This document shows, piece by piece, positions 21,529 through 61,415 of a stretch of DNA of 64,000 nucleotides. Under the pieces are notes generated by a model that saw nothing but the letters and a program-made list of their open reading frames with translations, ran no database searches and was not told the DNA's origin. The position numbers and the translations under genes are program-made. Position 1 is the stretch's first letter. Each line of letters opens with the position of its first letter. Source of the stretch: Elephas maximus indicus (Eukaryota > Chordata > Mammalia > Proboscidea > Elephantidae); assembly GCF_024166365.1 (NCBI RefSeq), contig NC_064823.1, positions 3,342,924-3,406,923 on the forward strand, given 5' to 3'.

Positions 21529-22021
21529 GCACTGCCAACGTGGAGTGCATCTACCACCCTCTCTTGTTGCACTCATATGGATAAAGAGGGCACTGCCAAC
21601 GTGGAGTGCACCTACCACCCTCTCTTGTTGCACTCATATGGATAAAGAGGGCACTGCCAACGTGGAGTGCACCTACCACCCTCTCTTGTTGCAGTCATAT
21701 GGATAAAGGAGGGCACTGCCAACGTGGAGTGCACCTACCACCCTCTCTTGTTGCACTCATATGGATAAAGAGGGCACTGCCAACGTGGAGTGCACCTACC
21801 ACCCTCTCTTGTTGCAGTCATATGGATAAAGGAGGGCACTGCCAACGTGGAGTGCATCTTCCACCCTCTCTTGTTGCAGTCATATGGATAAAGGAGAGCA
21901 CTGCCACCGTGGAGTGCACCTACCACCCTCTCTTGTTGCAGTCATATGGATAAAGGAGGGCACTGCCAACGTGGAGTGCACCTACCACCCTCTCTTGTTG
22001 CAGTCATATGGATAAAGGAGG
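21529..22021. repeat. Minisatellite, 8 copies of a 61/62-bp unit
   Basis: Units begin with GCACTGCCAACGTGGAGTGC at 21,529, 21,590, 21,651, 21,713, 21,774, 21,836, 21,898 and 21,960. Two classes exist. Units 1, 2 and 4 have TTGCACTC and AAAGAGG (61 bp); units 3 and 5-8 have TTGCAGTC and AAAGGAG (62 bp). GCACT and AGTGC at the start of each unit can pair as a small stem. The array gives open frames on both strands (21,606-21,953 +, 21,735-21,926 -). These are by-products of the repeat, not genes. Confidence 0.95.
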
Positions 22022-23190: not shown

Positions 23191-23218
23191 GACGCCAGTG
23201 ATGCGAGTGACCTCATAT

Positions 23219-23429
23219 GTTGTTGTTGGGTGCCGTCAAGTCAACTTTGACTCTTCGCAACCCCATGTGACAGAATAGAACTGCCCCGTAGGGTTTTCAT
23301 GGCTTTTTAATCTTTACAGAAGGAGATCGCATGCAGGCCTTTCTCCTGTAGAGCCTCTGGTGGATTCAAACTGCCAACCTTTCAGGTAACAGCCAAGCAC
23401 TTAACCGTTTGTGCCATCGGGGATCCTTA
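23219..23429 (-). mobile_element. AfroSINE, long type
   Basis: Plus-strand reading: tail TTGTTGTTGGGTGCCGTCAA, body CATGTGACAGAATAGAACTG, middle TAATCTTTACAGAAGGAGAT, then the head complement. The flanking duplication is ACCTCATAT (23,210-23,218; 23,430-23,438). This copy shows the ordinary arrangement of the segment that is amplified at 40,739-56,447 and at 32,264-32,419. Confidence 0.93.
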
Positions 23430-23627
23430 ACCTCATATACCAGGTACTTAATAAATGTTGGCAGAATTTTGTCAAATACAATAATAAGGTGTATGATAAA
23501 TCATATGTGCAACTACATTTTCCAGACCAAAAAAAAGTCAAGAAACATAAGCATGGGACAGAACATTTGAAATTAGGCTCGTCCTAGAAGACCCAGATTG
23601 CAAAAGCTACTGTATCACCAACCCATA

Positions 23628-24237: not shown

Positions 24238-24396
24238 AAGGCTCCTTAGAGATCAGAAAATCCAGTAGAGGCGGTCCCGGGGTTACAAGCAAGATCCATT
24301 CGTAAATCTGTCTTTACGTTGAATTTATAGTGTCAGTCAAATGTTTGTCTTAGTATATAGTATATATTTTACCTTTCTATGCTACGCATACAAAGG

Positions 24397-24560
24397 AAAC
24401 CCTGGTGGCGCAGTGGTTAAGTGCTATGGCCGCTAACCAAGAGGTCGGCAGTTGGAATTCGCCAGGCACTCCTTGGAAACTCTATCAGGCAGTTCTACTC
24501 TGTCCTATAGGGTCACTCTGAGTCGGAATCAACTCGAGGGCAGTGGTTTTTTTGGGGGTT
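24397..24560 (+). mobile_element. AfroSINE, short type, first of a tandem pair
   Basis: Flanked by ACGCATACAAAGG (24,384-24,396) and ATGCATACAAAGG (24,561-24,573). It inserted into the Tigger-type element. The head AAACCCTGGTGGCGCAGTGG is close to consensus. Confidence 0.93.
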
Positions 24561-24573
24561 ATGCATACAAAGG

Positions 24574-24728
24574 AAACCCTGTTTGCCTAGTAGTTAAGTG
24601 CTACCACTGCTAACCAAAAGGTCAGCAGTTCAAATCCGCCAGGCGCTCCTTGGAAAACCTATGGAGCAGTTTTACTCTGTCACTATGAATTGATATCAAC
24701 TCGATGGCAATGGGTTTGGGTATTTTTT
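24574..24728 (+). mobile_element. AfroSINE, short type, second of a tandem pair
   Basis: It follows the previous copy directly in the same orientation, between ATGCATACAAAGG (24,561-24,573) and ATGCATACAAA (24,729-24,739). It lacks about 15 bases of the GTCCTATAGGGTC region. It is more diverged (CTGTTTGCCTAGTAG) than its neighbour. Confidence 0.92.
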
Positions 24729-32225: not shown

Positions 32226-32515
32226 CCAGTTGCCATTGATTTAGTTCTGACTCATGGCAACCCCATGTGTTTCAGAATAGAACTGTGCTCCATAGGGTTT
32301 TCCATGTGTTTCAGAATAGAACTGTGCTCCATAGGGTTTCCCATGTGTTTCAGAATAGAACTGTGCTCCATAGGGTTTTCCATGTGTTTCAGAATAGAAC
32401 TGTGCTCCATAGGGTTTTCCACGGCTGATTTTTTAGAAGTAGATGAACTCCAACCTCCAACCTTTCGGTTTGCAGCCAAGCATGTGAGCCACTTGCATCA
32501 CCCAGGACCCTGTCT
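32226..32515 (-). mobile_element. AfroSINE, long type, with internal tandem expansion
   Basis: The plus-strand order is tail (CCAGTTGCCATTGATTTAG, CTGACTCATGGCAACCCCAT), four copies of a 39-bp body segment (32,264-32,419), then the normal continuation (CACGGCTGATTTTTTAGAAG) and head complement (CCTTTCGGTTTGCAGCCAAG, GCATCACCCAGGA). The element is normal except for the multiplied interior. Confidence 0.9.
32264..32419 (-). repeat. 4 x 39-bp tandem array inside a SINE
   Basis: CATGTGTTTCAGAATAGAAC starts units at 32,264, 32,303, 32,342 and 32,381, and each ends in CTCCATAGGGTTT(T/C)C. The units are nearly identical, so the expansion is much younger than the SINE. 39 bp is 13 codons, so open frames on both strands (32,265-32,525 +; 32,252-32,479 -) persist through it as an artefact. 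Confidence 0.97.
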
Positions 32516-40705: not shown

Positions 40706-40755
40706 GTAACCTTCCCCCCTCCGTTTTTTTAATTCTTTTGGTTGTTGCTGTGGTT

Positions 40756-41004
40756 GGGCACCACTGGGTGGAATCCGACTCAGGTGTCACAGAGTACAAC
40801 TGCCACGGAGGTTTTTTCACTGGTATTTCGTTGTTGCTGTTGTCGGGCACCACTGGGTGGACTCCAACTCACGTGTCACAGAGCAAAACTGCCTCGGAGC
40901 TTTTTTCACTGCTATTTGGTTATTCCTGTTGTCGGGAACCGCTGGGTGGACTCCAACTCACGTGTCACAGAGTAGAACTGCCGCATAGGTTCTCCTTGGC
41001 TGTG
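40756..41004 (-). repeat. Diverged ancestral units at the left edge of the array (89-bp spacing)
   Basis: The anchor GGGCACC/GGGAACC occurs at 40,756, 40,845 and 40,934, spaced 89 bp. From 40,934 to the next anchor at 41,005 the spacing is 71 bp. The 89-bp units keep SINE-like sequence lost from the 71-bp unit (GTTGTTGCTGTTG and TTTTTTCACTG) and are closer to ordinary SINE (GTGTCACAGAG, where the 71-bp unit has GTGTGACGGAG). Confidence 0.9.
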
Positions 41005-44000
41005 GGGCACGGCTGGGTGGACTCCGACTCCCGTGTGACGGAGTAGAACTGCCGCATAGGTTCTCCTTGGCTGTGGGGCACGGCTGGGTGGACTCCGACC
41101 CCCGTGTGACGGAGTAGAACTGCCGCGTAGGTTCTCCGTGGCTGTCGGGCACCGCTGGGTGGACTCCGACCCCCGTGTGACGGAGTAGAACTGCCGCGTA
41201 GGTTCTCCTTGGCTGTGGGGCACGGCTGGGTGGACTCCGACTCCCGTGTGACGGAGTAGAACTGCCGCATAGGTTCTCCTTGGCTGTGGGGCACGGCTGG
41301 GTGGACTCCGACTCCCGTGTGACGGAGTAGAACTGCCGCGTAGGTTCTCCGTGGGTGTCGGGCACCGCTGGGTGGACTCCGACCCCCGTGTGACGGAGTA
41401 GAACTGCCGCGTAGGTTCTCCGTGGGTGTCGGGCACCGCTGGGTGGACTCCGACTCCCGTGTGACGGAGTAGAACTGCCGCGTAGGTTCTCCGTGGGTGT
41501 CGGGCACCGCTGGGTGGACTCCGACTCCCGTGTGACGGAGTACAACTGCCGCGTAGGTTCTCCGTGGGTGTCGGGCACCGCTGGGTGGACTCCGACCCCC
41601 GTGTGACGGAGTAGAACTGCCGCGTAGGTTCTCCGTGGGTGTCGGGCACCGCTGGGTGGACTCCGACCCCCGTGTGACGGAGTAGAACTGCCGCGTAGGT
41701 TCTCCGTGGGTGTCGGGCACCGCTGGGTGGACTCCGACTCCCGTGTGACGGAGTAGAACTGCCGCGTAGGTTCTCCGTGGGTGTCGGGCACCGCTGGGTG
41801 GACTCCGACCCCCGTGTGACGGAGTAGAACTGCCCCGTAGGTTCTCCGTGGCTGTCGGGCACCGCTGGGTGGACTCCGACTCCCGTGTGACGGAGTAGAA
41901 CTGCCGCGTAGGTTCTCCTTGGCTGTCGGGCACCGCTGGGTGGACTCCGACCCCCGTGTGACGGGGTAGAACTGCCGCGTAGGTTCTCCTTGGCTGTCGG
42001 GCACCGCTGGGTGGACTCCGACCCCCGTGTGACGGAGTAGAACTGCCGCGTAGGTTCTCCGTGGGTGTCGGGCACCAATGGGTGGACTCCGACCCCCGTG
42101 TGACGGAGTAGAACTGCCGCGTAGGTTCTCCTTGGCTGTCGGGCACCGCTGGGTGGACTCCGACTCCCGTGTGACGGAGTAGAACTGCCGCGTAGGTTCT
42201 CCGTGGCTGTCGGGCACCGCTGGGTGGACTCCGACTCCCGTGTGACGGGGTAGAACTGCCGCGTAGGTTCTCCTTGGCTGTCGGGCACCGCTGGGTGGAC
42301 TCCGACCCCCGTGTGACGGAGTAGAACTGCCGCGTAGGTTCTCCGTGGGTGTCGGGCACCAATGGGTGGACTCCGACCCCCGTGTGACGGAGTAGAACTG
42401 CCGCGTAGGTTCTCCTTGGCTGTCGGGCACCGCTGGGTGGACTCCGACCCCCGTGTGACGGAGTAGAACTGCCGCGTAGGTTCTCCTTGGCTGTCGGGCA
42501 CCGCTGGGTGGACTCCGACTCCCGTGTGATGGAGTAGAACTGCCGCGTAGGTTCTCCGTGGCTGTCGGGCACCGCTGGGTGGACTCCGACTCCCGTGTGA
42601 CGGAGTAGAACTGCCGCGAAGGTTCTCCGTGGGTGTCGGGCACCGCTGGGTGGACTCCGACCCCCGTGTGACGGAGTAGAACTGCCGCGTAGGTTCTCCG
42701 TGGGTGTCGGGCACCGCTGGGTGGACTCCGACTCCCGTGTGACGGAGTAGAACTGCCGCGTAGGTTCTCCGTGGCTGTCGGGCACCGCTGGGTGGACTCC
42801 GACCCCCGTGTGACGGAGTAGAACTGCCGCGTAGGTTCTCCGTGGGTGTCGGGCACCGCTGGGTGGACTCCGACCCCCGTGTGACGGAGTAGAACTGCCG
42901 CGTAGGTTCTCCGTGGGTGTCGGGCACCACTGGGTGGACTCCGACTCCCGTGTGACGGAGTAGAACTGCCGCGTAGATTCTCCTTGGCTGTCGCGCACCG
43001 CTGGGTGGACTCCGACTCCCGTGTTACGGAGTAGAACTGCCGCGTAGGTTCTCCGTGGGTGTCGGGCACCGCTGGGTGGACTCCGACCCCCGTGTGACGG
43101 AGTAGAACTGCCGCGTAGGTTCTCCGTGGGTGTCGGGCACCGCTGGGTGGACTCCGACCCCCGTGTGACGGAGTAGAACTGCCGCGTAGGTTCTCCGTGG
43201 CTGTCGGGCACCGCTGGGTGGACTCCGACCCCCGTGTGACGGAGTAGAACTGCCGCGTAGGTTCTCCGTGGCTGTCGGGCACCGCTGGGTGGACTCCGAC
43301 TCCCGTGTGACGGAGTAGAACTACCCCGTAGGTTCTCCGTGGGTGTCGGGCACCGCTGGGTGGACTCCGACCCCCGTGTGACGGAGTAGAACTGCCGCGT
43401 AGGTTCTCCGTGGGTGTCGGGCACCGCTGGGTGGACTCCGACCCCCGTGTGACGGAGTAGAACTGCCGCGTAGGTTCTCCGTGCGTGTCGGGCACCGCTG
43501 GGTGGACTCCGACCCCGTGTGACGGAGTAGAACTGCCCCGTAGGTTCTCCGTGGGTGTCGGGCACCGCTGGGTGGACTCCGACCCCGTGTGACGGAGTAG
43601 AACTGCCCCGTAGGTTCTCCGTGGGTGTCGGGCACCGCTGGGTGGACTCCGACTCCCGTGTGACGGAGTAGAACTGCCCCGTAGGTTCTCCGTGGGTGTC
43701 GGGCACCGCTGGGTGGACTCCAACCCCCGTGTGACGGAGTAGAACTGCCCCGTAGGTTCTCCGTGGGTGTCGGGCACCGCTGGGTGGACTCCGACCCCCG
43801 TGTGACGGAGTAGAAGTGCCGCGTAGGTTCTCCGTGGCTGTCGGGCACCGCTGGGTGGACTCCGACCCCCGTGTGACGGAGTAGAACTGCCGCGTAGGTT
43901 CTCCGTGGGTGTCGGGCACCGCTGGGTGGACTCCGACCCCCGTGTGACGGAGTAGAACTGCCGCGTAGGTTCTCCTTGGCTGTCGGGCACCGCTGGGTGG

Positions 44001-47000
44001 ACTCCGACTCCCGTGTGACGGAGTAGAACTGCCCCGTAGGTTCTCCTTGGCTGTCGGGCACCGCTGGGTGGACTCCGACCCCCGTGTGACGGAGTAGAAC
44101 TGCCGCGTAGGTTCTCCTTGGCTGTCGGGCACCGCTGGGTGGACTCCGACTCCCGTGTGACGGAGTAGAACTGCCGCGTAGGTTCTCCTTGGCTGTCGGG
44201 CACCGCTGGGTGGACTCCGACCCCCGTGTGACGGAGTAGAACTGCCGCGTAGGTTCTCCTTGGCTGTCGGGCACCGCTGGGTGGACTCCGACTCCCGTGT
44301 GACGGAGTAGAACTGCCGCGTAGGTTCTCCTTGGCTGTCGGGCACCGCTGGGTGGACTCCGACCCCCGTGTGACGGAGTAGAACTGCCGCGTAGGTTCTC
44401 CTTGGCTGTCGGGCACCGCTGGGTGGACTCCGACTCCCGTGTGACGGAGTAGAACTGCCGCGTAGGTTCTCCTTGGCTGTCGGGCACCGCTGGGTGGACT
44501 CCGACCCCCGTGTGACGGAGTAGAACTGCCGCGTAGGTTCTCCTTGGCTGTCGGGCACCGCTGGGTGGACTCCGACCCCCGTGTGACGGAGTAGAACTGC
44601 CGCGTAGGTTCTCCGTGGGTGTCGGGCACCGCTGGGTGGACTCCGACCCCCGTGTGACGGAGTAGAAGTGCCGCGTAGGTTCTCCGTGGGTGTCGGGCAC
44701 CGCTGGGTGGACTCCGACCCCCGTGTGACGGAGTAGAACTGCGGCGTAGGTTCTCCTTGGCTGTCGGGCACCGCTGGGTGGACTCCGACTCCCGTGTGAC
44801 GGAGTAGAACTGCGGCGTAGGTTCTCCCTGGGTGTCGGGCACCGCTGGGTGGACTCCGACCCCCGTGTGACGGAGTAGAACTGCCGCGTAGGTTCTCCTT
44901 GGCTGTCGGCACCGCTGGGTGGACTCCGACCCCCGTGTGACGGAGTAGAACTGCCGCGTAGGTTCTCCTTGGCTGTCGGGCACCGCTGGGTGGACTCCGA
45001 CTCCCGTGTGACGGAGTAGAACTGCCGCGTAGGTTCTCCGTGGGTGTCGGACACCGCTGGGTGGACTCCGACCCCCGTGTGACGGAGTAGAACTGCCCCG
45101 TAGGTTCTCCGTGGCTGTCGGGCACCGCTGGGTGGACTCCGACTCCCGTGTGACGGAGTAGAACTGCCGCGTAGGTTCTCCGTGGGTGTCGGGCACCGCT
45201 GGGTGGACTCCGACTCCCGTGTGACGGAGTAGAACTGCCGCGTAGGTTCTCCGTGGCTGTCGGGCACCGCTGGGTGGACTCCGACCCCCGTGTGACGGAG
45301 TAGAACTGCCGCGTAGGTTCTCCTTGGCTGTCGGGCACCGCTGGGTGGACTCCGACTCCCGTGTGACGGAGTAGAACTGCGGCGTAGGTTCTCCGTGGCT
45401 GTGGGCACCGCTGGGTGGACTCCGACCCCCGTGTGACGGAGTAGAACTGCCGCGTAGGTTCTCCGTGGCTGTCGGGCACCGCTGGGTGGACTCCGACCCC
45501 CGTGTGACGGAGTAGAACTGCCGCGTAGGTTCTCCGTGGCTGTCGGGCACCGCTGGGTGGACTCCGACCCCCGTGTGACGGAGTAGAACTGCCGCGTAGG
45601 TTCTCCTTGGCTGTCGGGCACCGCTGGGTGGACTCCGACTCCCGTGTGACGGAGTAGAACTGCCGCGTAGGTTCTCCTTGGCTGTCGGGCACCGCTGGGT
45701 GGACTCCGACTCCCGTGTGACGGAGTAGAACTGCCGCGTAGGTTCTCCGTGGGTGTCGGGCACCGCTGGGTGGACTCCGACCCCCGTGTGACGGAGTAGA
45801 ACTGCCGCGTAGGTTCTCCTTGGCTGTCGGGCACCGCTGGGTGGACTCCGACCCCCGTGTGACGGAGTAGAACTGCCGCGTAGGTTCTCCTTGGCTGTCG
45901 GGCACCGCTGGGTGGACTCCGACTCCCGTGTGACGGAGTAGAACTGCCGCGTAGGTTCTCCTTGGCTGTCGGGCACCGCTGGGTGGACTCCGACTCCCGT
46001 GTGACGGAGTAGAACTGCCGCGTAGGTTCTCCTTGGCTGTCGGGCACCGCTAGGTGGACTCCGACCCCCGTGTGACGGAGTAGAACTGCCGCGTAGGTTC
46101 TCCTTGGCTGTCGGGCACCGCTGGGTGGACTCCGACTCCCGTGTGACGGAGTAGAACTGCCGCGTAGGTTCTCCTTGGCTGTCGGGCACCGCTGGGTGGA
46201 CTCCGACTCCCGTGTGACGGAGTAGAACTGCCGCGTAGGTTCTCCTTGGCTGTCGGGCACCGCTGGGTGGACTCCGACTCCCGTGTGACGGAGTAGAACT
46301 GCCGCGTAGGTTCTCCTTGGCTGTCGGGCACCGCTGGGTGGACTCCGACTCCCGTGTGACGGAGTAGAACTGCCGCGTAGGTTCTCCTTGGCTGTCGGGC
46401 ACCGCTGGGTGGACTCCGACCCCCGTGTGACGGAGTAGAACTGCCGCGTAGGTTCTCCTTGGCTGTCGGGCACCGCTGGGTGGACTCCGACTCCCGTGTG
46501 ACGGAGTAGAACTGCCGCGTAGGTTCTCCTTGGCTGTCGGGCACCGCTGGGTGGACTCCGACTCCCGTGTGACGGAGTAGAACTGCCGCGTAGGTTCTCC
46601 TTGGCTGTCGGGCACCGCTGGGTGGACTCCGACCCCCGTGTGACGGAGTAGAACTGCCGCGTAGGTTCTCCGTGGCTGTGGGCACCGCTGGGTGGACTCC
46701 GACCCCCGTGTGACGGAGTAGAACTGCGGCGTAGGTTCTCCGTGGCTGTGGGCACCGCTGGGTGGACTCCGACTCCCGTGTGACGGAGTAGAACTGCGGC
46801 GTAGGTTCTCCCTGGGTGTCGGGCACCGCTGGGTGGACTCCGACCCCCGTGTGACGGAGTAGAACTGCCGCGTAGGTTCTCCCTGGGTGTCGGGCACCGC
46901 TGGGTGGACTCCGACCCCCGTGTGACGGAGTAGAACTGCCGCGTAGGTTCTCCTTGGCTGTCGGGCACCGCTGGGTGGACTCCGACCCCCGTGTGACGGA

Positions 47001-50000
47001 GTAGAACTGCCCCGTAGGTTCTCCTTGGCTGTCGGGCACCGCTGGGTGGACTCCGACCCCCGTGTGACGGAGTAGAACTGCCGCGTAGGTTCTCCTTGGC
47101 TGTCGGGCACCGCTGGGTGGACTCCGACCCCCGTGTGACGGAGTAGAACTGCCCCGTAGGTTCTCCTTGGCTGTCGGGCACCGCTGGGTGGACTCCGACC
47201 CCCGTGTGACGGAGTAGAACTGCCGCGTAGGTTCTCCGTGGGTGTCGGACACCGCTGGGTGGACTCCGACCCCCGTGTGACGGAGTAGAACTGCCCCGTA
47301 GGTTCTCCGTGGCTGTCGGGCACCGCTGGGTGGACTCCGACCCCCGTGTGACGGAGTAGAAGTGCCGCGTAGGTTCTCCTTGGCTGTGGGGCACGGCTGG
47401 GTGGACTCCGACTCCCGTGTGACGGAGTAGAACTGCCGCGTAGGTTCTCCGTGGCTGTCGGGCACCGCTGGGTGGACTCCGACCCCGTGTGACGGAGTAG
47501 AACTGCCGCGTAAGTTCTCCGTGGCTCTCGGGCACCGCTGGGTGGACTCCGACTCCCGTGTGACGGAGTAGAACTGCCGCGTAGGTTCTCCGTGGCTGTC
47601 GGGCTCCGCTGGGTGGACTCCGACCCCCGTGTGACGGAGTAGAAGTGCCGCGTAGGTTCTCCTTGGCTGTGGGGCACGGCTGGGTGGACTCCGACTCCCG
47701 TGTGACGGAGTAGAAGTGCCGCGTAGGTTCTCCGTGGCTGTCGGGCTCCGCTGGGTGGACTCCGACCCCCGTGTGACGGAGTAGAAGTGCCGCGTAGGTT
47801 CTCCTTGGCTGTGGGGCACGGCTGGGTGGACTCCGACTCCCGTGTGACGGAGTAGAAGTGCCGCGTAGGTTCTCCGTGGCTGTCGGGCTCCGCTGGGTGG
47901 ACTCCGACCCCCGTGTGACGGAGTAGAAGTGCCGCGTAGGTTCTCCTTGGCTGTGGGGCACGGCTGGGTGGACTCCGACTCCCGTGTGACGGAGTAGAAG
48001 TGCCGCGTAGGTTCTCCTTGGCTGTGGGGCACGGCTGGGTGGACTCCGACTCCCGTGTGACGGAGTAGAAGTGCCGCGTAGGTTCTCCGTGGCTGTCGGG
48101 CTCCGCTGGGTGGACTCCGACCCCCGTGTGACGGAGTAGAAGTGCCGCGTAGGTTCTCCTTGGCTGTGGGGCACGGCTGGGTGGACTCCGACTCCCGTGT
48201 GACGGAGTAGAACTGCCGCGTAGGTTCTCCGTGGCTGTCGGGCACCGCTGGGTGGACTCCGACTCCCGTGTGACGGAGTAGAACTGCCGCGTAGGTTCTC
48301 CGTGGGTGTCGGGCTCCGCTGGGTGGACTCCGACCCCCGTGTGACGGAGTAGAACTGCCGCGTAGGTTCTCCGTGGCTGTCGGGCTCCGCTGGGTGGACT
48401 ACGACTCCCGTGTGACGGAGTAGAACTGCCGCGTAGGTTCTCCTTGGCTGTCGGGCACCGCTGGGTGGACTCCGACTCCCGTGTGACGGAGTACAACTGC
48501 CGCGTAGGTTCTCCGTGGCTGTCGGGCTCCGCTGGGTGGACTCCGACCCCCGTGTGACGGAGTAGAACTGCCGCGTAGGTTCTCCGTGGCTGTCGGGCTC
48601 CGCTGGGTGGACTCCGACTCCCGTGTGACGGAGTAGAACTGCCGCGTAGGTTCTCCTTGGCTGTCGGGCACCGCTGGGTGGACTCCGACTCCCGTGTGAC
48701 GGAGTAGAACTGCCGCGTAGGTTCTCCTTGGCTGTCGGGCACCGCTGGGTGGACTCCGACCCCCGTGTGACGGAGTAGAACTGCCGCGTAGGTTCTCCGT
48801 GGGTGTCGGGCACCGCTGGGTGGACTCCGACTCCCGTGTGACGGAGTAGAACTGCCGCGTAAGTTCTCCGTGGCTCTCGGGCACCGCTGGGTGGACTCCG
48901 ACTCCCGTGTGACGGAGTAGAACTGCCCCGTAGGTTCTCCGTGGCTCTCGGGCACCGCTGGGTGGACTCCGACTCCCGTGTGATGGAGTAGAACTGCCGC
49001 GTAGGTTCTCCGTGGCTGTCGGGCACCGCTGGGTGGACTCCGACCCCCGTGTGACGGAGTAGAACTGCCGCGTAGGTTCTCCGTGGGTGTCGGGCACCGC
49101 TGGGTGGACTCCGACTCCCGTGTGACGGAGTAGAACTGCCGCGTAGGTTCTCCGTGGCTGTCGGGCACCGCTGGGTGGACTCCGACTCCCGTGTGACGGA
49201 GTAGAACTGCCCCGTAGGTTCTCCGTTACTCTCGGGCACCGCTGGGTGGACTCCGACCCCCGTGTGACGGAGTAGAACTGCCGCGTAGGTTCTCCGTGGG
49301 TGTCGGGCACCGCTGGGTGGACTCCGACCCCCGTGTGACGGAGTAGAACTGCCGCGTAGATTCTCCGTGGCTGTCGGGCACCGCTGGGTGGACTCCGACC
49401 CCCGTGTGACGGAGTAGAACTGCCGCGTAGGTTCTCCGTGGCTGTCGGGCACCGCTGGGTGGACTCCGACTCCCGTGTGACGGAGTAGAACTGCCCCGTA
49501 GGTTCTCCGTGGCTCTCGGGCACCGCTGGGTGGACTCCGACTCCCGTGTGATGGAGTAGAACTGCCGCGTAGGTTCTCCTTGGCTGTCGGGCACCGCTGG
49601 GTGGACTCCGACTCCCGTGTGACGGAGTAGAACTGCCGCGTAGGTTCTCCGTGGCTGTCGGGCACCGCTGGGTGGACTCCGACTCCCGTGTGATGGAGTA
49701 GAACTGCCGCGTAGGTTCTCCTTGGCTGTCGGGCACCGCTGGGTGGACTCCGACTCCCGTGTGACGGAGTAGAACTGCCCCGTAGGTTCTCCGTGGCTGT
49801 CGGGCACCGCTGGGTGGACTCCGACTCCCGTGTGACGGAGTAGAACTGCCGCGTAGGTTCTCCGTGGCTGTCGGGCACCGCTGGGTGGACTCCGACCCCC
49901 GTGTGACGGAGTAGAACTGCCGTGTAGGTTCTCCGTGGCTGTCGGGCACCGCTGGGTGGACTCCGACTCCCGTGTGACGGAGTAGAACTGCCGCGTAGGT

Positions 50001-53000
50001 TCTCCGTGGCTGTCGGGCACCGCTGGGTGGACTCCGACTCCCGTGTGATGGAGTAGAACTGCCGCGTAGGTTCTCCTTGGCTGTCGGGCACCGCTGGGTG
50101 GACTCCGACTCCCGTGTGATGGAGTAGAACTGCCGCGTAGGTTCTCCTTGGCTGTCGGGCACCGCTGGGTGGACTCCGACTCCCGTGTGACGGAGTAGAA
50201 CTGCCCCGTAGGTTCTCCGTGGGTGTCGGGCTCCGCTGGGTGGACTCCGACTCCCGTGTGACGGAGTAGAACTGCCGCGTAGGTTCTCCGTGGCTGTCGG
50301 GCACCGCTGGGTGGACTCCGACTCCCGTGTGATGGAGTAGAACTGCCGCGTAGGTTCTCCTTGGCTGTCGGGCACCGCTGGGTGGACTCCGACTCCCGTG
50401 TGATGGAGTAGAACTGCCGCGTAGGTTCTCCTTGGCTGTCGGGCACCGCTGGGTGGACTCCGACTCCCGTGTGATGGAGTAGAACTGCCGCGTAGGTTCT
50501 CCTTGGCTGTCGGGCACCGCTGGGTGGACTCCGACTCCCGTGTGACGGAGTAGAACTGCCGCGTAGGTTCTCCGTGGCTCTCGGGCACCGCTGGGTGGAC
50601 TCCGACTCCCGTGTGATGGAGTAGAACTGCCGCGTAGGTTCTCCTTGGCTGTCGGGCACCGCTGGGTGGACTCCGACTCCCGTGTGACGGAGTAGAACTG
50701 CCCCGTAGGTTCTCCGTGGCTGTCGGGCACCGCTGGGTGGACTCCGACTCCCGTGTGACGGAGTAGAACTGCCGCGTAGGTTCTCCGTGGCTGTCGGGCA
50801 CCGCTGGGTGGACTCCGACCCCCGTGTGACGGAGTAGAACTGCCGTGTAGGTTCTCCGTGGCTGTCGGGCACCGCTGGGTGGACTCCGACTCCCGTGTGA
50901 CGGAGTAGAACTGCCGCGTAGGTTCTCCGTGGCTGTCGGGCACCGCTGGGTGGACTCCGACTCCCGTGTGACGGAGTAGAACTGCCCCGTAGGTTCTCCG
51001 TTACTCTCGGGCACCGCTGGGTGGACTCCGACTCCCGTGTGACGGAGTAGAACTGCCCCGTAGGTTCTCCGTTACTCTCGGGCACCGCTGGGTGGACTCC
51101 GACTCCCGTGTGACGGAGTAGAACTGCCGCGTAGGTTCTCCGTTACTCTCGGGCACCGCTGGGTGGACTCCGACCCCCGTGTGACGGAGTAGAACTGCCG
51201 CGTAGGTTCTCCGTGGGTGTCGGGCACCGCTGGGTGGACTCCGACCCCCGTGTGACGGAGTAGAACTGCCGCGTAGGTTCTCCGTGGCTGTCGGGCACCG
51301 CTGGGTGGACTCCGACCCCCGTGTGACGGAGTAGAACTGCCGCGTAGGTTCTCCGTGGCTGTCGGGCACCGCTGGGTGGACTCCGACTCCCGTGTGACGG
51401 AGTAGAACTGCCGCGTAGGTTCTCCGTGGGTGTCGGGCACCGCTGGGTGGACTCCGACCCCCGTGTGACGGAGTAGAACTGCCGCGTAGATTCTCCGTGG
51501 CTGTCGGGCACCGCTGGGTGGACTCCGACCCCTGTGTGACGGGGTAGAACTGCCGCGTAGGTTCTCCGTGGGTGTCGGGCACCGCTGGGTGGACTCCGAC
51601 CCCCGTGTGACGGAGTAGAACTGCCGCGTAGGTTCTCCTTGGCTGTCGGGCACCGCTGGGTGGACTCCGACTCCCGTGTGACGGAGTAGAACTGCCCCGT
51701 AGGTTCTCCGTTACTCTCGGGCACCGCTGGGTGGACTCCGACTCCCGTGTGACGGAGTAGAACTGCCGCGTAGGTTCTCCGTTACTCTCGGGCACCGCTG
51801 GGTGGACTCCGACCCCCGTGTGACGGAGTAGAACTGCCGCGTAGGTTCTCCGTGGGTGTCGGGCACCGCTGGGTGGACTCCGACCCCCGTGTGACGGAGT
51901 AGAACTGCCGCGTAGGTTCTCCGTTACTCTCGGGCACCGCTGGGTGGACTCCGACTCCCGTGTGACGGAGTAGAACTGCCGCGTAGGTTCTCCGTTACTC
52001 TCGGGCACCGCTGGGTGGACTCCGACCCCCGTGTGACGGAGTAGAACTGCCGCGTAGGTTCTCCGTTACTCTCGGGCACCGCTGGGTGGACTCCGACTCC
52101 CGTGTGACGGAGTAGAACTGCCCCGTAGGTTCTCCGTTACTCTCGGGCACCGCTGGGTGGACTCCGACTCCCGTGTGACGGAGTAGAACTGCCGCGTAGG
52201 TTCTCCGTTACTCTCGGGCACCGCTGGGTGGACTCCGACCCCCGTGTGACGGAGTAGAACTGCCGCGTAGGTTCTCCGTTACTCTCGGGCACCGCTGGGT
52301 GGACTCCGACTCCCGTGTGACGGAGTAGAACTGCCCCGTAGGTTCTCCGTTACTCTCGGGCACCGCTGGGTGGACTCCGACTCCCGTGTGACGGAGTAGA
52401 ACTGCCGCGTAGGTTCTCCGTTACTCTCGGGCACCGCTGGGTGGACTCCGACCCCCGTGTGACGGAGTAGAACTGCCCCGTAGGTTCTCCGTTACTCTCG
52501 GGCACCGCTGGGTGGACTCCGACTCCCGTGTGACGGAGTAGAACTGCCGCGTAGGTTCTCCGTTACTCTCGGGCACCGCTGGGTGGACTCCGACCCCCGT
52601 GTGACGGAGTAGAACTGCCGCGTAGGTTCTCCGTTACTCTCGGGCACCGCTGGGTGGACTCCGACTCCCGTGTGACGGAGTAGAACTGCCGCGTAGGTTC
52701 TCCTTGGCTCTCGGGCACCGCTGGGTGGACTCCGACTCCCGTGTGACGGAGTAGAACTGCCGCGTAGGTTCTCCGTTACTCTCGGGCACCGCTGGGTGGA
52801 CTCCGACCCCCGTGTGACGGAGTAGAACTGCCGCGTAGGTTCTCCGTGGGTGTCGGGCACCGCTGGGTGGACTCCGACCCCCGTGTGACGGAGTAGAACT
52901 GCCGCGTAGGTTCTCCGTGGCTGTCGGGCACCGCTGGGTGGACTCCGACCCCCGTGTGACGGAGTAGAACTGCCGCGTAGGTTCTCCGTGGCTGTCGGGC

Positions 53001-56000
53001 ACCGCTGGGTGGACTCCGACCCCCGTGTGACGGAGTAGAACTGCCGCGTAGGTTCTCCGTGGCTGTCGGGCACCGCTGGGTGGACTCCGACCCCCGTGTG
53101 ACGGAGTAGAACTGCCGCGTAGGTTCTCCGTGGCTGTCGGGCACCGCTGGGTGGACTCCGACTCCCGTGTGACGGAGTAGAACTGCCGCGTAGGTTCTCC
53201 GTGGGTGTCGGGCACCGCTGGGTGGACTCCGACCCCCGTGTGACGGAGTAGAACTGCCGCGTAGGTTCTCCCTGGGTGTCGGGCACCGCTGGGTGGACTC
53301 CGACCCCCGTGTGACGGAGTAGAACTGCCGCGTAGGTTCTCCGTGGCTGTCGGGCACCGCTGGGTGGACTCCGACCCCCGTGTGACGGAGTAGAACTGCC
53401 GCGTAGGTTCTCCGTGGCTGTCGGGCACCGCTGGGTGGACTCCGACCCCCGTGTGACGGAGTAGAACTGCCGCGTAGGTTCTCCGTGGCTGTCGGGCACC
53501 GCTGGGTGGACTCCGACTCCCGTGTGACGGAGTAGAACTGCCGCGTAGGTTCTCCGTGGCTGTCGGGCACCGCTGGGTGGACTCCGACTCCCGTGTGACG
53601 GAGTAGAACTGCCGCGTAGGTTCTCCGTGGGTGTCGGGCACCGCTGGGTGGACTCCGACCCCCGTGTGACGGAGTAGAACTGCCGCGTAGATTCTCCGTG
53701 GCTGTCGGGCACCGCTGGGTGGACTCCGACTCCCGTGTGACGGGGTAGAACTGCCGCGTAGGTTCTCCGTGGGTGTCGGGCACCGCTGGGTGGACTCCGA
53801 CCCCCGTGTGACGGAGTAGAACTGCCGCGTAGGTTCTCCTTGGCTGTCGGGCACCGCTGGGTGGACTCCGACCCCCGTGTGACGGAGTAGAACTGCCGCG
53901 TAGGTTCTCCGTGGCTGTCGGGCACCGCTGGGTGGACTCCGACCCCCGTGTGACGGAGTAGAACTGCCGCGTAGGTTCTCCTTGCTTGTCGGGCACCGCT
54001 GGGTGGACTCCGACCCCCGTGTGACGGAGTAGAACTGCCGCGTAGGTTCTCCGTGGCTGTAGGGCACCGCTGGGTGGACTCCGACCCCCGTGTGACGGAG
54101 TAGAACTGCCGCGTAGGTTCTCCGTGGCTGTAGGGCACCGCTGGGTGGACTCCGACTCCCGTGTGACGGAGTAGAACTGCCGCGTAGGTTCTCCGTGGGT
54201 GTCGGGCACCGCTGGGTGGACTCCGACTCCCGTGTGACGGAGTAGAACTGCCGCGTAGGTTCTCCTTGGCTGTCGGGCACCGCTGGGTGGACTCCGACCC
54301 CCGTGTGACGGAGTAGAACTGCCGCGTAGGTTCTCCGTGGCTGTAGGGCACCGCTGGGTGGACTCCGACTCCCGTGTGATGGAGTAGAACTGCCGCGTAG
54401 GTTCTCCGTGGGTGTCGGGCACCGCTGGGTGGACTCCGACCCCCGTGTGACGGAGTAGAACTGCCGCGTAGGTTCTCCGTGGGTGTCGGGCACCGCTGGG
54501 TGGACTCCGACCCCCGTGTGACGGAGTAGAACTGCCGCGTAGGTTCTCCGTGGCTGTAGGGCACCGCTGGGTGGACTCCGACCCCCGTGTGACGGAGTAG
54601 AACTGCCGCGTAGGTTCTCCTTGGCTGTAGGGCACCGCTGGGTGGACTCCGACCCCCGTGTGACGGAGTAGAACTGCCGCGTAGGTTCTCCGTGGCTGTA
54701 GGGCACCGCTGGGTGGACTCCGACCCCCGTGTGACGGAGTAGAACTGCCGCGTAGGTTCTCCGTGGCTGTAGGGCACCGCTGGGTGGACTCCGACCCCCG
54801 TGTGACGGAGTAGAACTGCCGCGTAGGTTCTCCGTGGGTGTCGGGCACCGCTGGGTGGACTCCGACCCCCGTGTGACGGAGTAGAACTGCCGCGTAGGTT
54901 CTCCTTGGCTGTCGGGCACCGCTGGGTGGACTCCGACCCCCGTGTGACGGAGTAGAACTGCCGCGTAGGTTCTCCGTGGCTGTAGGGCACCGCTGGGTGG
55001 ACTCCGACCCCCGTGTGACGGAGTAGAACTGCCGCGTAGGTTCTCCGTGGCTGTAGGGCACCGCTGGGTGGACTCCGACTCCCGTGTGACGGAGTAGAAC
55101 TGCCGCGTAGGTTCTCCGTGGGTGTCGGGCACCGCTGGGTGGACTCCGACTCCCGTGTGACGGAGTAGAACTGCCGCGTAGGTTCTCCTTGGCTGTCGGG
55201 CACCGCTGGGTGGACTCCGACCCCCGTGTGACGGAGTAGAACTGCCGCGTAGGTTCTCCGTGGCTGTAGGGCACCGCTGGGTGGACTCCGACTCCCGTGT
55301 GATGGAGTAGAACTGCCGCGTAGGTTCTCCGTGGGTGTCGGGCACCGCTGGGTGGACTCCGACCCCCGTGTGACGGAGTAGAACTGCCGCGTAGGTTCTC
55401 CGTGGGTGTCGGGCACCGCTGGGTGGACTCCGACCCCCGTGTGACGGAGTAGAACTGCCGCGTAGGTTCTCCGTGGCTGTAGGGCACCGCTGGGTGGACT
55501 CCGACCCCCGTGTGACGGAGTAGAACTGCCGCGTAGGTTCTCCGTGGCTGTAGGGCACCGCTGGGTGGACTCCGACCCCCGTGTGACGGAGTAGAACTGC
55601 CGCGTAGGTTCTCCTTGGCTGTCGGGCACCGCTGGGTGGACTCCGACCCCCGTGTGACGGAGTAGAACTGCCGCGTAGGTTCTCCGTGGCTGTAGGGCAC
55701 CGCTGGGTGGACTCCGACCCCCGTGTGACGGAGTAGAACTGCCGCGTAGGTTCTCCGTGGCTGTAGGGCACCGCTGGGTGGACTCCGACTCCCGTGTGAC
55801 GGAGTAGAACTGCCGCGTAGGTTCTCCGTGGGTGTCGGGCACCGCTGGGTGGACTCCGACTCCCGTGTGACGGAGTAGAACTGCCGCGTAGGTTCTCCTT
55901 GGCTGTCGGGCACCGCTGGGTGGACTCCGACCCCCGTGTGACGGAGTAGAACTGCCGCGTAGGTTCTCCGTGGGTGTCGGGCACCGCTGGGTGGACTCCG

Positions 56001-56333
56001 ACCCCCGTGTGACGGAGTAGAACTGCCGCGTAGGTTCTCCGTGGCTGTAGGGCACCGCTGGGTGGACTCCGACTCCCGTGTGATGGAGTAGAACTGCCGC
56101 GTAGGTTCTCCTTGGCTGTCGGGCACCGCTGGGTGGACTCCGACCCCCGTGTGACGCAGTAGAACTGCCGCGTAGGTTCTCCGTGGGTGTCGGGCACCGC
56201 TGGGTGGACTCCGACCCCCGTGTGACGCAGTAGAACTGCCGCGTAGGTTCTCCGTGGCTGTCGGGCACCGCTGGGTGGACTCCGACCCCCGTGTGACGGA
56301 GTAGAACTGCCGCGTAGGTTCTCCGTGGCTGTA
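41005..56333 (-). repeat. 71-bp satellite array, 216 monomers, derived from an AfroSINE interior
   Basis: The anchor GGGCACCGCTGGGTGG (or a variant) recurs every 71 bp from 41,005 to 56,263. Each monomer continues CTCCGACTCCCGTGTGACGG, AGTAGAACTGCCGCGTAGG, TTCTCCGTGGCTGTC. The span of 15,258 bp equals 215 x 71 minus 7, and I located exactly seven 70-bp monomers, so the count closes. GC is about 66% in a common monomer, with about eight CpG. Variants are clustered by position and form local higher-order repeats. The minus strand has no stop trinucleotide in the common monomer. This is why frames such as 40,958-49,168, 43,321-50,943 and 52,492-56,268 stay open; they are not called as genes. Confidence 0.97.
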
Positions 56334-56447
56334 ATCTCTACAGAAGCAGATCATCAGGCCTTTCTCCTGTAGAGCTTCTGGTTGGGTTCAAAGTGCCAGC
56401 CTTTTGGTTAGCAGCCAAGTGCTTTTCTGTTGTGCCAACAGGGCTGC
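56334..56447 (-). promoter_or_regulatory. tRNA-like head of the satellite-bearing SINE (degenerate pol III promoter)
   Basis: Read on the minus strand, the head starts GCAGCCCTGTTGGCACAACA (A-box position, degraded from GGTGGCACAGTGG) and has CACTTTGAACCCAAC at the B-box position, where intact copies read GGTTCGAACCC. Any transcript would run straight into the array. Both boxes carry substitutions at key bases, so activity is doubtful. Confidence 0.5.
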
Positions 56448-56605
56448 TTTTATATCTGGTAGCAGTTCATTTTTAAATTGGTCCAAAAGCTTCATGAAGA
56501 GTTCACCAGTTCATGTTATCAAGCACCTTAGAAAGAGCTACAAATCTGGGTATTTGTGAGGGGAACCTTTATGAAGAAGAACAGTTATATAATTTCTAAG
56601 CACCC

Positions 56606-59135: not shown

Positions 59136-61230
59136 GATGCAGCTCATTACAGCCATTGAAATGTCATTACGTTTCTCTCTCTGCCAAGATTTCCTCCAGC
59201 TTTGCAAATAAGGGCCAAAAACATTGCAGATAACTGAAACAATTTGCCAGCCCTCTATCTCCCCAACAGGATGACTGGTTGCAAAACAAATGAAATCACT
59301 GCTGTTTACAACTCATCATGCACAGTTATGTTTCATTTTGGGCAAATGGCTGTTTGTAAAACTAGTCTGCCATATTTTTAGTCATTATCTCCCTTTTCTT
59401 TCAAAAATTAAAGCTGACTTTGAGTTTTCATATGAAAACAAATCAGAGACCCTTCTGATTATGTTTGTGGTCTTGGGTGTATGAAGTCTTCCCGTGGTGG
59501 AGGCCTCCTTCCCTTGCTAAGGTTCAGGTGGTAACTGGAGAGGTGCAGCTCTCTCTCTTTTTCCCCTTCCCTTTTTAAAATCTCTCTCTGGTCCATAAAA
59601 CTTTTAAAATAGAACTTTATAACTTTCAGCAAGTTACGTGTTTCTCTCTCTGTTTCATCTTTATCTTCAGCATCAAATCAAATACTAAGCACACAGGTAT
59701 TCATGACACCTAATATATAGGACTTTATGTCATGGAGAGGCGGAATCCTTATCATCTTGCCTTCGCCAGGACCACACAGGTGGGCTTCTGTGCTGCTCTC
59801 TCTGCGTCAGCAAAGGAAGATGGGGCAGGAGATCAGTAAGCAAATCTAGACCTACAGATGGCCTTCTTGCACCTCTAACTGCTCCTGAGTCTTTGTACTC
59901 ATCAACATTCTCCGGGGAACATTTAAAACAATTCACTTTGCAAGGTGCATGTAATGTTTACCCAAAAAAAAAAGTATTAAAGTCTGATTTACAAAATAGC
60001 CTGATTCTACTCTTTTCTGCAATGAAGATAATGTGTGTCATAGATTTAGCAGTATACATGTATTATAATAGAGACTATATATAATAGTGTACATATAGTA
60101 CATTCTTTAGTGTGATATGCAAGAGTAAATACAATCCTTTGCAGGACAGTTATGTTTTATACAAAGATGTATGCTTTTTTCCTGACATTATAAATATTTG
60201 GTCACATATTCCCCCTTTTTCTTCTATTTCCCTAACTTCTCCTGAAACTAAGAGAGAGTAAATATTAAAGTGTATTTGCTTCTGTTTAAATGTGAATCAC
60301 TAGACTTACTAGGGGCCCTCCTTCTGGAAAAATTAAGTACTGCAATCGAAATCAGCTGTAGCTGTGCTTTGTGCTGGCTTCATGTAGGGGGGCACTGGTG
60401 GATTCAGAAGCCCGCTCTTTAGCTTCTCCAGCACAGAAGACAAGGATCACGTTATTCTGGAGGAAAAGATGAGTATCAAGCTCGTCCCTATTATCCTTCC
60501 CTTCCCCTCCCCCACTCTTACCTACTTCTATTTTATGAGCTTCATTTTCCGTTTTCCTTATATGAACTTGATGGTGTGCTAGGAGAACAGAAAGAGAATT
60601 GAGTTAACTGCCTTCCTTGGATTTTCTAGTTTCCTTTCCACTGCCCACGTCTTAAAATTAAATGTCTTTTTTTTTTTTTTTCCTAAACACACACACACAT
60701 GCACGCTTTATCTACAAACATTTGTCTAGTTAAATTTTCTGAGTTCAGTTGTTTCAATCTGAAAAGTAGGATGGATACCTTTCTCATTAGACACCTTGTA
60801 ACATTAATTTGATATATGGTGTCAGGGTGTTTTTCCTTGCAAGAATCAAAAGAACTACTGACCCCAAACAAACAGAGATGGTTGTAACTCATGGAAGCGA
60901 TTCATTTTAGAAGAAGTTGGCCATTTAATTTTGTGTAGTACCTCACATACAAAAATGGTATTACTCACCTACAATTAGTAAAGGTCATGTTTTTGAGTGT
61001 TCTTTCCCAGTCTTTGATCCTAGGAGAGCCAGGGATTCAGTAAGGCTGGCTGGAGTTGAAATGCCCTTATTAACCATGGACAGAAAAGAAAGCTTGCAAG
61101 TCCAAGATCACTTGGGAATGGAACTAAAAATCTTACCCATAAATTGAGGGTGTTTTAACTGCCCAAACTAATGACATATACACAAAGAGATTCAGCCGCG
61201 TTTTAATCTGCCCAGTTCAGATAAATAGAT
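59136..61230. other. AT-rich single-copy sequence, no gene seen
   Basis: Contains a T-run at 60,668-60,682 followed by a short CA run. No exon or interspersed repeat recognised. Confidence 0.5.
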
Positions 61231-61232
61231 AA

Positions 61233-61415
61233 AAACCAGACTCACTGCCGTCAAGTTGATTCTGACTCGTGGCAACCCCGTGTGGTACGGAGCAGAACTG
61301 CTCTGTAGGGTTTCTTGCCTGTAATCTTTACAGAAGCAGGTCGCCAGGACTTCCTTCCATGGCTCCATTGGGCAGGTTCAAAGCTCCAAGCTTTAGGTTA
61401 GCAGCCTATCACAAC
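61233..61415 (-). mobile_element. AfroSINE, long type
   Basis: Plus-strand CAGACTCACTGCCGTCAAGT, CCGTGTGGTACGGAGCAGAA, TTGCCTGTAATCTTTACAGA and the head complement TTTAGGTTAGCAGCC. The sequence CCTGTAATCTTTACAG gives the normal context of the array's right-hand junction. Confidence 0.88.

Follow-up and report, generated by a model that had tools for sequence, protein, structure and literature searches.

How does a long tandem array come to stand inside a single transposable element? The question is raised by a 64,000-nucleotide stretch of the Elephas maximus indicus genome (contig NC_064823.1, here C7, positions 3,342,924-3,406,923), referred to below as the window. Within it, 15.4 kb of tandem units are flanked by the two ends of one short interspersed element (SINE) of a family that we take to be AfroSINE. 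Afro SINEs are tRNA-derived elements present in all afrotherians, according to the available part of PMC3747384. The array is derived from the interior of the SINE, its unit is private to this locus at the sensitivity used, and its units are locally homogenised. Very probably, one old full-type AfroSINE on the minus strand duplicated internally and grew in place, stepwise, into the array. All of the results come from one assembly, of which 3,401,163,062 bases in 64 contigs were searched; stretches reading N cannot match in these pattern searches.

Anatomy of the Array

Tandem Repeats Finder (TRF) places a 71-bp tandem array at 40,930-56,332 of the window (217 copies, 96% matches) and a period-89 stretch of 2.8 copies at 40,737-40,982, which overlaps the left edge of the former. 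Segmentation anchored on an 18-nt pattern, with at most 2 substitutions, divides the same region into 219 units: two leader units of 89 bp, one transitional unit of 71 bp and 216 core units. The unit spacings are 71 bp (n = 209), 70 bp (n = 7) and 89 bp (n = 2), and the mean pairwise identity of the core units is 95.5%. An earlier reading of the window, made from the letters only (the sequence-only reading), had reported 216 tandem 71-bp units. This number holds for the core, although seven core units are 70 bp long and the three earlier units bring the total to 219. Its description of the array was otherwise confirmed, but the 89-bp leaders, a deletion of ~10 nt in the SINE body and a mini-array at 32,263-32,421 had gone unmentioned.

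Read from left to right, the locus begins with the tail of the founder SINE (40,737-40,751), identified from the sequence and from alignment with ordinary copies; the SINE is on the minus strand with its tail at the left, and all of the parts that follow share this strand. Leader unit 1 (40,752-40,840), which consists of SINE body plus a tail segment, and leader unit 2 (40,841-40,929) are both delimited by TRF and by segmentation. The transitional unit (40,930-41,000, from segmentation) has a leader-type left part and a core-type right part ending in GGC|TGT, and is followed by the 216 core units (41,001-56,329), which are supported by TRF, segmentation and the junction pattern described below. 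The array closes on a TGT (56,330-56,332) that is common to the start of the unit and to the native SINE (GGC-TGT-AATC), the 3-bp microhomology of the founding 71-bp duplication. Beyond it lies the single-copy remaining half of the SINE, middle plus head (56,333-56,449), delimited by alignment with an ordinary copy at 23.2 kb and with the window consensus. The head is a putative one, named from its alignment with ordinary copies.

SINE Origin of the Unit

The origin of the unit was probed by aligning the doubled 71-bp consensus with individual SINE copies, with 200 shuffles for each comparison. The unit scores 59 against the ordinary full-type AfroSINE at 23.2 kb (23,216-23,430, minus strand) and 47 against a second ordinary full-type copy at 61.2 kb (61,230-61,412, minus strand), the best of 200 shuffles being 29 in both cases. 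Against the AfroSINE at 32.2 kb the score is 39 with a shuffle maximum of 38, which is insufficient proof by itself. The sequence-only reading had derived the unit from the AfroSINE interior, a claim that would fall if the two did not align above chance, and the scores obtained with the two full-type copies uphold it.

The flanks supply the rest of the element. The right remainder (56,333-56,449, 117 bp) is 80% identical to positions 94-213 of the 23.2-kb copy, and the interval 56,330-56,460 scores 18 against the unit, not above shuffles (maximum 22). Because the remainder matches the 23.2-kb copy but not the unit, it represents the SINE half that is missing from the units; left tail, units and right half add up to one SINE. 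Alignment of ten full-type window copies gives the exit-point consensus TGGC-TGT-AATC, with TGT present in 7 of the 10 copies and GGC-TGT in 4. Since the exit context of the array equals this ordinary-copy consensus, the array passes into the SINE unbroken. The attachment of a SINE tail at the left and of SINE middle and head at the right, also recognised in the sequence-only reading, is thereby borne out, with both parts in the same orientation and the exit running through GGCTGT-AATC.

The founder parts align with an abundant SINE family of this genome, a 17-nt motif of which (GAGTAGAACTGCCCCAT) has 160,631 exact copies, and 29 AfroSINE pieces are found in the window when the array is masked. 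At 79 of 98 positions the right half of the SINE agrees with the window consensus, a value inside the range of the ten ordinary copies (70-86%, leave-one-out), indicating that the founder SINE was an old copy.

Confinement to One Locus

The distribution of the unit was examined with a 33-nt junction pattern containing three ambiguous places, with the reversed pattern as a control. The whole 3.4-Gb genome yields 160 matches (160 forward, 0 reverse) and the control yields 0. The window by itself contains 160 matches, and the junction places, among the matches listed, all fall inside the array on C7. When up to 3 mismatches are allowed, a 34-nt pattern from the founder body gives 201 genome matches, 200 of which lie in the window; the single match outside is a single-copy AfroSINE on C32 with the deletion-bearing pattern. 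At this sensitivity, the 160 of 160 junction matches and 200 of 201 founder-body matches in the window argue for expansion in place and not for import from a family. The array is a private locus at the sensitivity used and not a dispersed satellite family; a classical dispersed satellite has many loci of the same unit, and here all 160 junction matches fall in one window. The sequence-only reading had proposed both the expansion of one SINE in place and a genome search for other arrays of the unit; the first is supported, and the second leaves no junction match unaccounted for by the window.

The C32 locus (C32:13,141,251-13,141,950, L017) is a single full-type AfroSINE with a founder-like body deletion. 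By eye it contains a diverged, partial internal duplication of ~32 bp, and exact-run tests at periods 32-35 were negative.

Probable Order of Events and Proposed Mechanism

The expansion appears to have taken at least two steps, first with 89-bp and then with 71-bp units, the order of the steps being read from the order of the units: two 89-bp leaders, transitional unit, core. The transitional unit has leader states at columns 28, 30, 36 and 39 on its left and is core-like on its right. At columns 30, 36 and 39 the leader states are shared by both leaders and the transitional unit, and 0 of 216 core units have them. Leader 1 differs from leader 2 at 9 of 62 compared columns, the leaders differ from the core by 18-19%, and sampled core pairs differ by 3.4%. 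These ratios, which carry no absolute dates, suggest a relative order of ages in which the SINE came first, the leader duplication followed and the present core is youngest. At the 71-bp junction, TGT is common to the SINE tail (GTTGT|CGGG) and the exit (GGCTGT|AATC).

The proposed mechanism would start from an old full-type AfroSINE with a body deletion of ~10 nt and a short internal tandem duplication. First, an 89-bp duplication of tail plus body would have given rise to the leader units, as the unit order suggests. Next, a new 71-bp duplication between TGT trinucleotides may have arisen in the last copy, which was still joined to the native SINE middle. The 71-bp unit would then have reached 216 copies, probably as sister or homologous arrays underwent unequal exchange and conversion, processes to which local runs of identical units and block duplications point. 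In this view, the early stages are preserved as a fossil at the left edge, and homogenisation would have been maintained at the right edge. Recombination seems to be the motor, and the array is most readily understood as a neutral outcome of recombination, for which host function is not required.

Turnover and Base Composition

The arrangement of unit types within the array offers insight into its turnover. Identical unit types exceed 200 shuffles, with z > 3 at lags 1-6, 8, 9, 13, 15, 23 and 25 (lags 1-60 compared); among neighbouring units, type sharing reaches z of 4-8 at lags 1-5. A block of 8 units is repeated 13 units away. Mean unit divergence, 3.3% at lag 1, increases to 4.7% by lag 80; at lags 120-200 it stands at 4.0-4.3%. 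Both the distribution of unit types and that of divergence are as expected from local unequal exchange or conversion.

The array also differs from its surroundings in composition. Its guanine plus cytosine (GC) content is 65.9% versus 42.7% in the remaining window, and its CpG observed/expected ratio is 0.96 versus 0.28, making it a large CpG-rich island. Core changes can be polarised well at columns 28, 30 and 39, where the old state is common to both leaders, the transitional unit and the plurality of SINEs; three of three are AT-to-GC, the change at column 28 being fixed only partly. The 27 rare variants (at most 5 copies of 216) comprise 16 GC-to-AT, 3 AT-to-GC, 7 G/C and 1 A/T changes. 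The comparison of polarised changes with rare variants (one-sided p ~0.013, calculated by hand) gives a hint of a GC-biased conversion component, from too few sites.

The consensus unit has zero stops in all frames of the minus strand, and stop-to-stop open reading frames extend up to 2,755 codons. A coding reading was considered and rejected: 17.5% of 20,000 shuffled units are equally stop-free, and the minus strand of the array contains 24 stop triplets.

Small AfroSINE Arrays Elsewhere in the Genome

Other AfroSINE-internal arrays were surveyed by a census of the exact 17-nt motif with a second copy 27-88 bp away. This census returned 47 motif pairs at 58-88 bp and 41 at 27-57 bp, with 0 in the controls; the 88 pairs correspond to 61 loci outside the window array, or ~1 per 2,600 motif copies. 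The count is a floor, as arrays without the exact motif are missed, the window array itself among them, and other large arrays of this kind are possible. At least 3 units are present at 10 of the 61 loci (eight via multiple pairs and two from reading the matched sequence), the largest with ~7 units. The other 51 loci have two exact motif copies. Several of these show by eye an apparent SINE tail between the motifs (C2:22,993,452; C7:29,799,137; C8:86,667,314), suggesting that two-copy loci may be nested or adjacent SINEs and not internal duplications. The two-copy locus at C6:141,323,688 seemingly contains a third, imperfect unit.

Six of the ten loci with at least 3 units were inspected. Their units measure 74, 75, 23, 29, 34 and 23 bp. 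Each of the six is seen by eye to have SINE sequence continuing on both the tail and the head side. Perfect-run lengths give junction microhomologies of 8, 1, 5 and 7 bp in four of the inspected arrays, the other two being too diverged. A second AfroSINE of the window contains an internal mini-array (32,263-32,421, minus strand; 39 bp x 4.1 by TRF), which also has SINE on both sides, with a 3-bp junction microhomology (CCA).

Three of the ten small arrays with at least 3 units lie within 3.5 Mb of a contig end (expected 5.5%, p = 0.015, with the cut set post hoc), as does 1 of the 51 two-copy loci. Of the ten, the two whose motifs span the greatest length are found at 0.86 and 1.95 Mb from a contig end; the window array is at 3.38 Mb. 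A control sample of 160 kb comprised 16 stretches, namely the start of C7 and 15 stretches at the 3-Mb mark of C7 or of another contig; five of the 20 contigs chosen were too short to be included. It contains 29 AfroSINE loci, confined to 7 of the 16 stretches, and one stretch (L016) has near-tandem SINE copies. TRF lists 107 rows with periods of at least 15 in this sample, and none is an AfroSINE-derived array. Several of the stretches were satellite, which makes the control weak.

A broader reading is offered tentatively and is rather doubtful. AfroSINEs may keep making small internal duplications, a seed library in which nearly every member stops growing after a few units. One seed, located near a chromosome end where recombination is frequent, would have escaped into a self-sustaining array via meiotic exchange and GC-biased conversion, a process that would also have raised the GC content of the unit to 66%, its CpG being almost undepleted.

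Several other repeats were observed along the way. Near-tandem AfroSINE copies on C20 at 3.00 Mb (L016 1,898-2,247) were flagged by the overlap test, and the window contains two head-to-tail AfroSINEs (24,383-24,717; 177-bp spacing, 82% identical over 122 nt). A minisatellite of 62 bp x 8 at 21,529-22,021 of the window, with spacing alternating between 61 and 62 bp, has no obvious SINE likeness. At 3.00 Mb of C15 and of C17 (L012 1-10000; L014 7-10000), the 10 kb examined are filled by a 24-bp satellite that looks telomere-repeat-derived (CTAACCC... with AAC blocks). At 3.00 Mb of C8 (L007 6-9997), 10 kb are filled by a degenerate ~32-bp satellite with TRF periods of 32, 62, 94 and 126 and ~69% matches.

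Alternative Explanations

Some of the observations weigh against stepwise growth from one SINE. One is column 36, where most other SINEs share the state of the core and not that of the leader units. The core is consequently not a simple descendant of the present leaders, and a common ancestor or recombination is needed; clean descent from the present leader units is contradicted at this column, and only a shared ancestor or recombination is claimed. The unit copy number comes from one assembly. Finally, the candidate target-site duplications on the left (TTTTAATTCT, 40,727-40,736) and right (TTTTATATCT, 56,448-56,457) match at 8 of 10 positions, a value equalled by 17% of 300 random window pairs.

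The alternative that fares best retains the whole anatomy and changes the motor. It is quite possible that replication slippage or template switching (break-induced or rolling-circle reinsertion), and not unequal exchange, amplified the unit. The founding junction has a microhomology of 3 bp, five small arrays have 8, 7, 5, 3 and 1 bp, and the block repeated at an offset of 13 units fits one large jump. The local mixing of unit types and the homogenised right edge fit repeated exchange instead, and sequence alone cannot separate the motors.

The seed of the array could have been a second, truncated SINE beside or within the first in place of an internal duplication. The 89-bp leaders do include a tail segment, and the two-copy census loci with an apparent tail between the motifs indicate that nested or adjacent insertions occur. 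This origin is nevertheless improbable: leader and core units have in common the same ~10-nt body deletion, which is found in none of the ten aligned full-type window copies, and both leader units have identical length and boundaries. It is just as unlikely that the array is real and its copy number or homogeneity a product of assembly. Repeats of 95.5% identity extending over 15.4 kb are difficult to assemble; the 219 units, however, include 81 distinct sequences in an ordered, locally structured arrangement, and the window is without any N.

Expansion elsewhere, or membership of a dispersed satellite family, followed by copying to this place together with SINE pieces, has a precedent in the dispersed SINE-derived satellite families of squamates (PMC10702118, in its available part). 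It is very improbable here, given that, stretches reading N apart, every exact junction match lies in the window and that the one tolerant match outside it is a single-copy SINE. Capture of a pre-existing tandem array between two SINE insertions or halves, with a secondary likeness of unit and SINE, is scarcely credible even in a window where tandem repeats and SINEs are both common, as the unit itself aligns with the SINE interior and the flanking parts are complementary, non-overlapping and of the same orientation, with an exit via GGCTGT-AATC.

Relationship to Known SINE-Derived Repeats

Growth of a tandem array from one AfroSINE has parallels among known repeats. Minisatellites, or variable number tandem repeats (VNTRs), are single-locus tandem arrays with units of roughly 10-100 bp, a definition that the elephant array fits. 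Human Alu-derived minisatellites were reportedly described by Jurka and Gentles in 2006, as cited by Ahmed and Liang in 2012, and a mouse B1-derived unstable VNTR family is said to have been described by Bois and colleagues in 1998. In the available part of the Alu study (Ahmed & Liang 2012, PMC3389668), an internal SINE segment is duplicated in place, as in the elephant, and one array of 17 x 52 bp from AluJo was extended in situ in the human lineage. The mean unit number of the Alu classes given there is 2.30-2.42, versus 219 in the elephant array. The mouse B1 family is likewise a SINE-seeded mammalian minisatellite; it is listed as (GGCAGA)n in the accessible parts of PMC9659126 and PMC6947457, a short unit in contrast to the 71-bp SINE-body unit found here.

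The closest resemblance is to the SINE-derived satellites (sSats) of squamates, which keep SINE ends attached (Vassetzky et al. 2023, PMC10702118; what follows on squamates rests on the available part of this report). Like the elephant array, sSats are tandem repeats of a SINE segment, with a unit of 67 nt in snakes. They have terminal SINE extensions, are more homogeneous in longer arrays, reach up to ~1000 units and show a subtelomeric preference. In the elephant, the unit likewise comes from part of a SINE of its own genome, the terminal units reach the SINE end on both sides (40,737-40,751; 56,333-56,449), and the array is long and homogeneous (219 units, core identity 95.5%). The array is located 3.38 Mb into a contig of 166.4 Mb, and neither TTAGGG nor CCCTAA occurs in the first 10 kb of that contig. 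Squamate sSats are mostly SINE-extended at one end, arrays with both ends being minor variants, whereas the elephant array has both. Many squamate genomes have numerous sSat loci; the elephant array, by contrast, is one large locus; its host is a mammal, and it stems from another SINE family.

The direct view of satellite birth that the sequence-only reading saw in this locus therefore stands in part. The conversion of a SINE into an array with both ends attached is upheld, but the word satellite is generous for a single-locus array of 15.4 kb, and such SINE-ended satellites had already been described in squamates (PMC10702118, available part). Searches confined to the open-licence literature yielded neither an array derived from AfroSINE nor, in any mammal, a SINE-derived array of such size. 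The principle is already known from squamate sSats and from Alu and B1 minisatellites; the elephant array is outstanding in its unit number, in its two SINE ends and in its intermediate units.

The start of a satellite is usually inferred once its traces are gone. At this locus the seed, the intermediates and the expanded array stand in order, with the parent SINE attached, and stalled small relatives, ten at the least and probably many more, are available as controls in the same genome. The authors of PMC10702118 state, in the part available, that mammals were not specifically checked for sSats; the elephant locus is a clear mammalian case of the sSat-like arrays that were thus left open. If the seed-library reading is true, the elephant genome would hold the seeds, the stalled arrays and one runaway, and the transition from seed to satellite would become countable.

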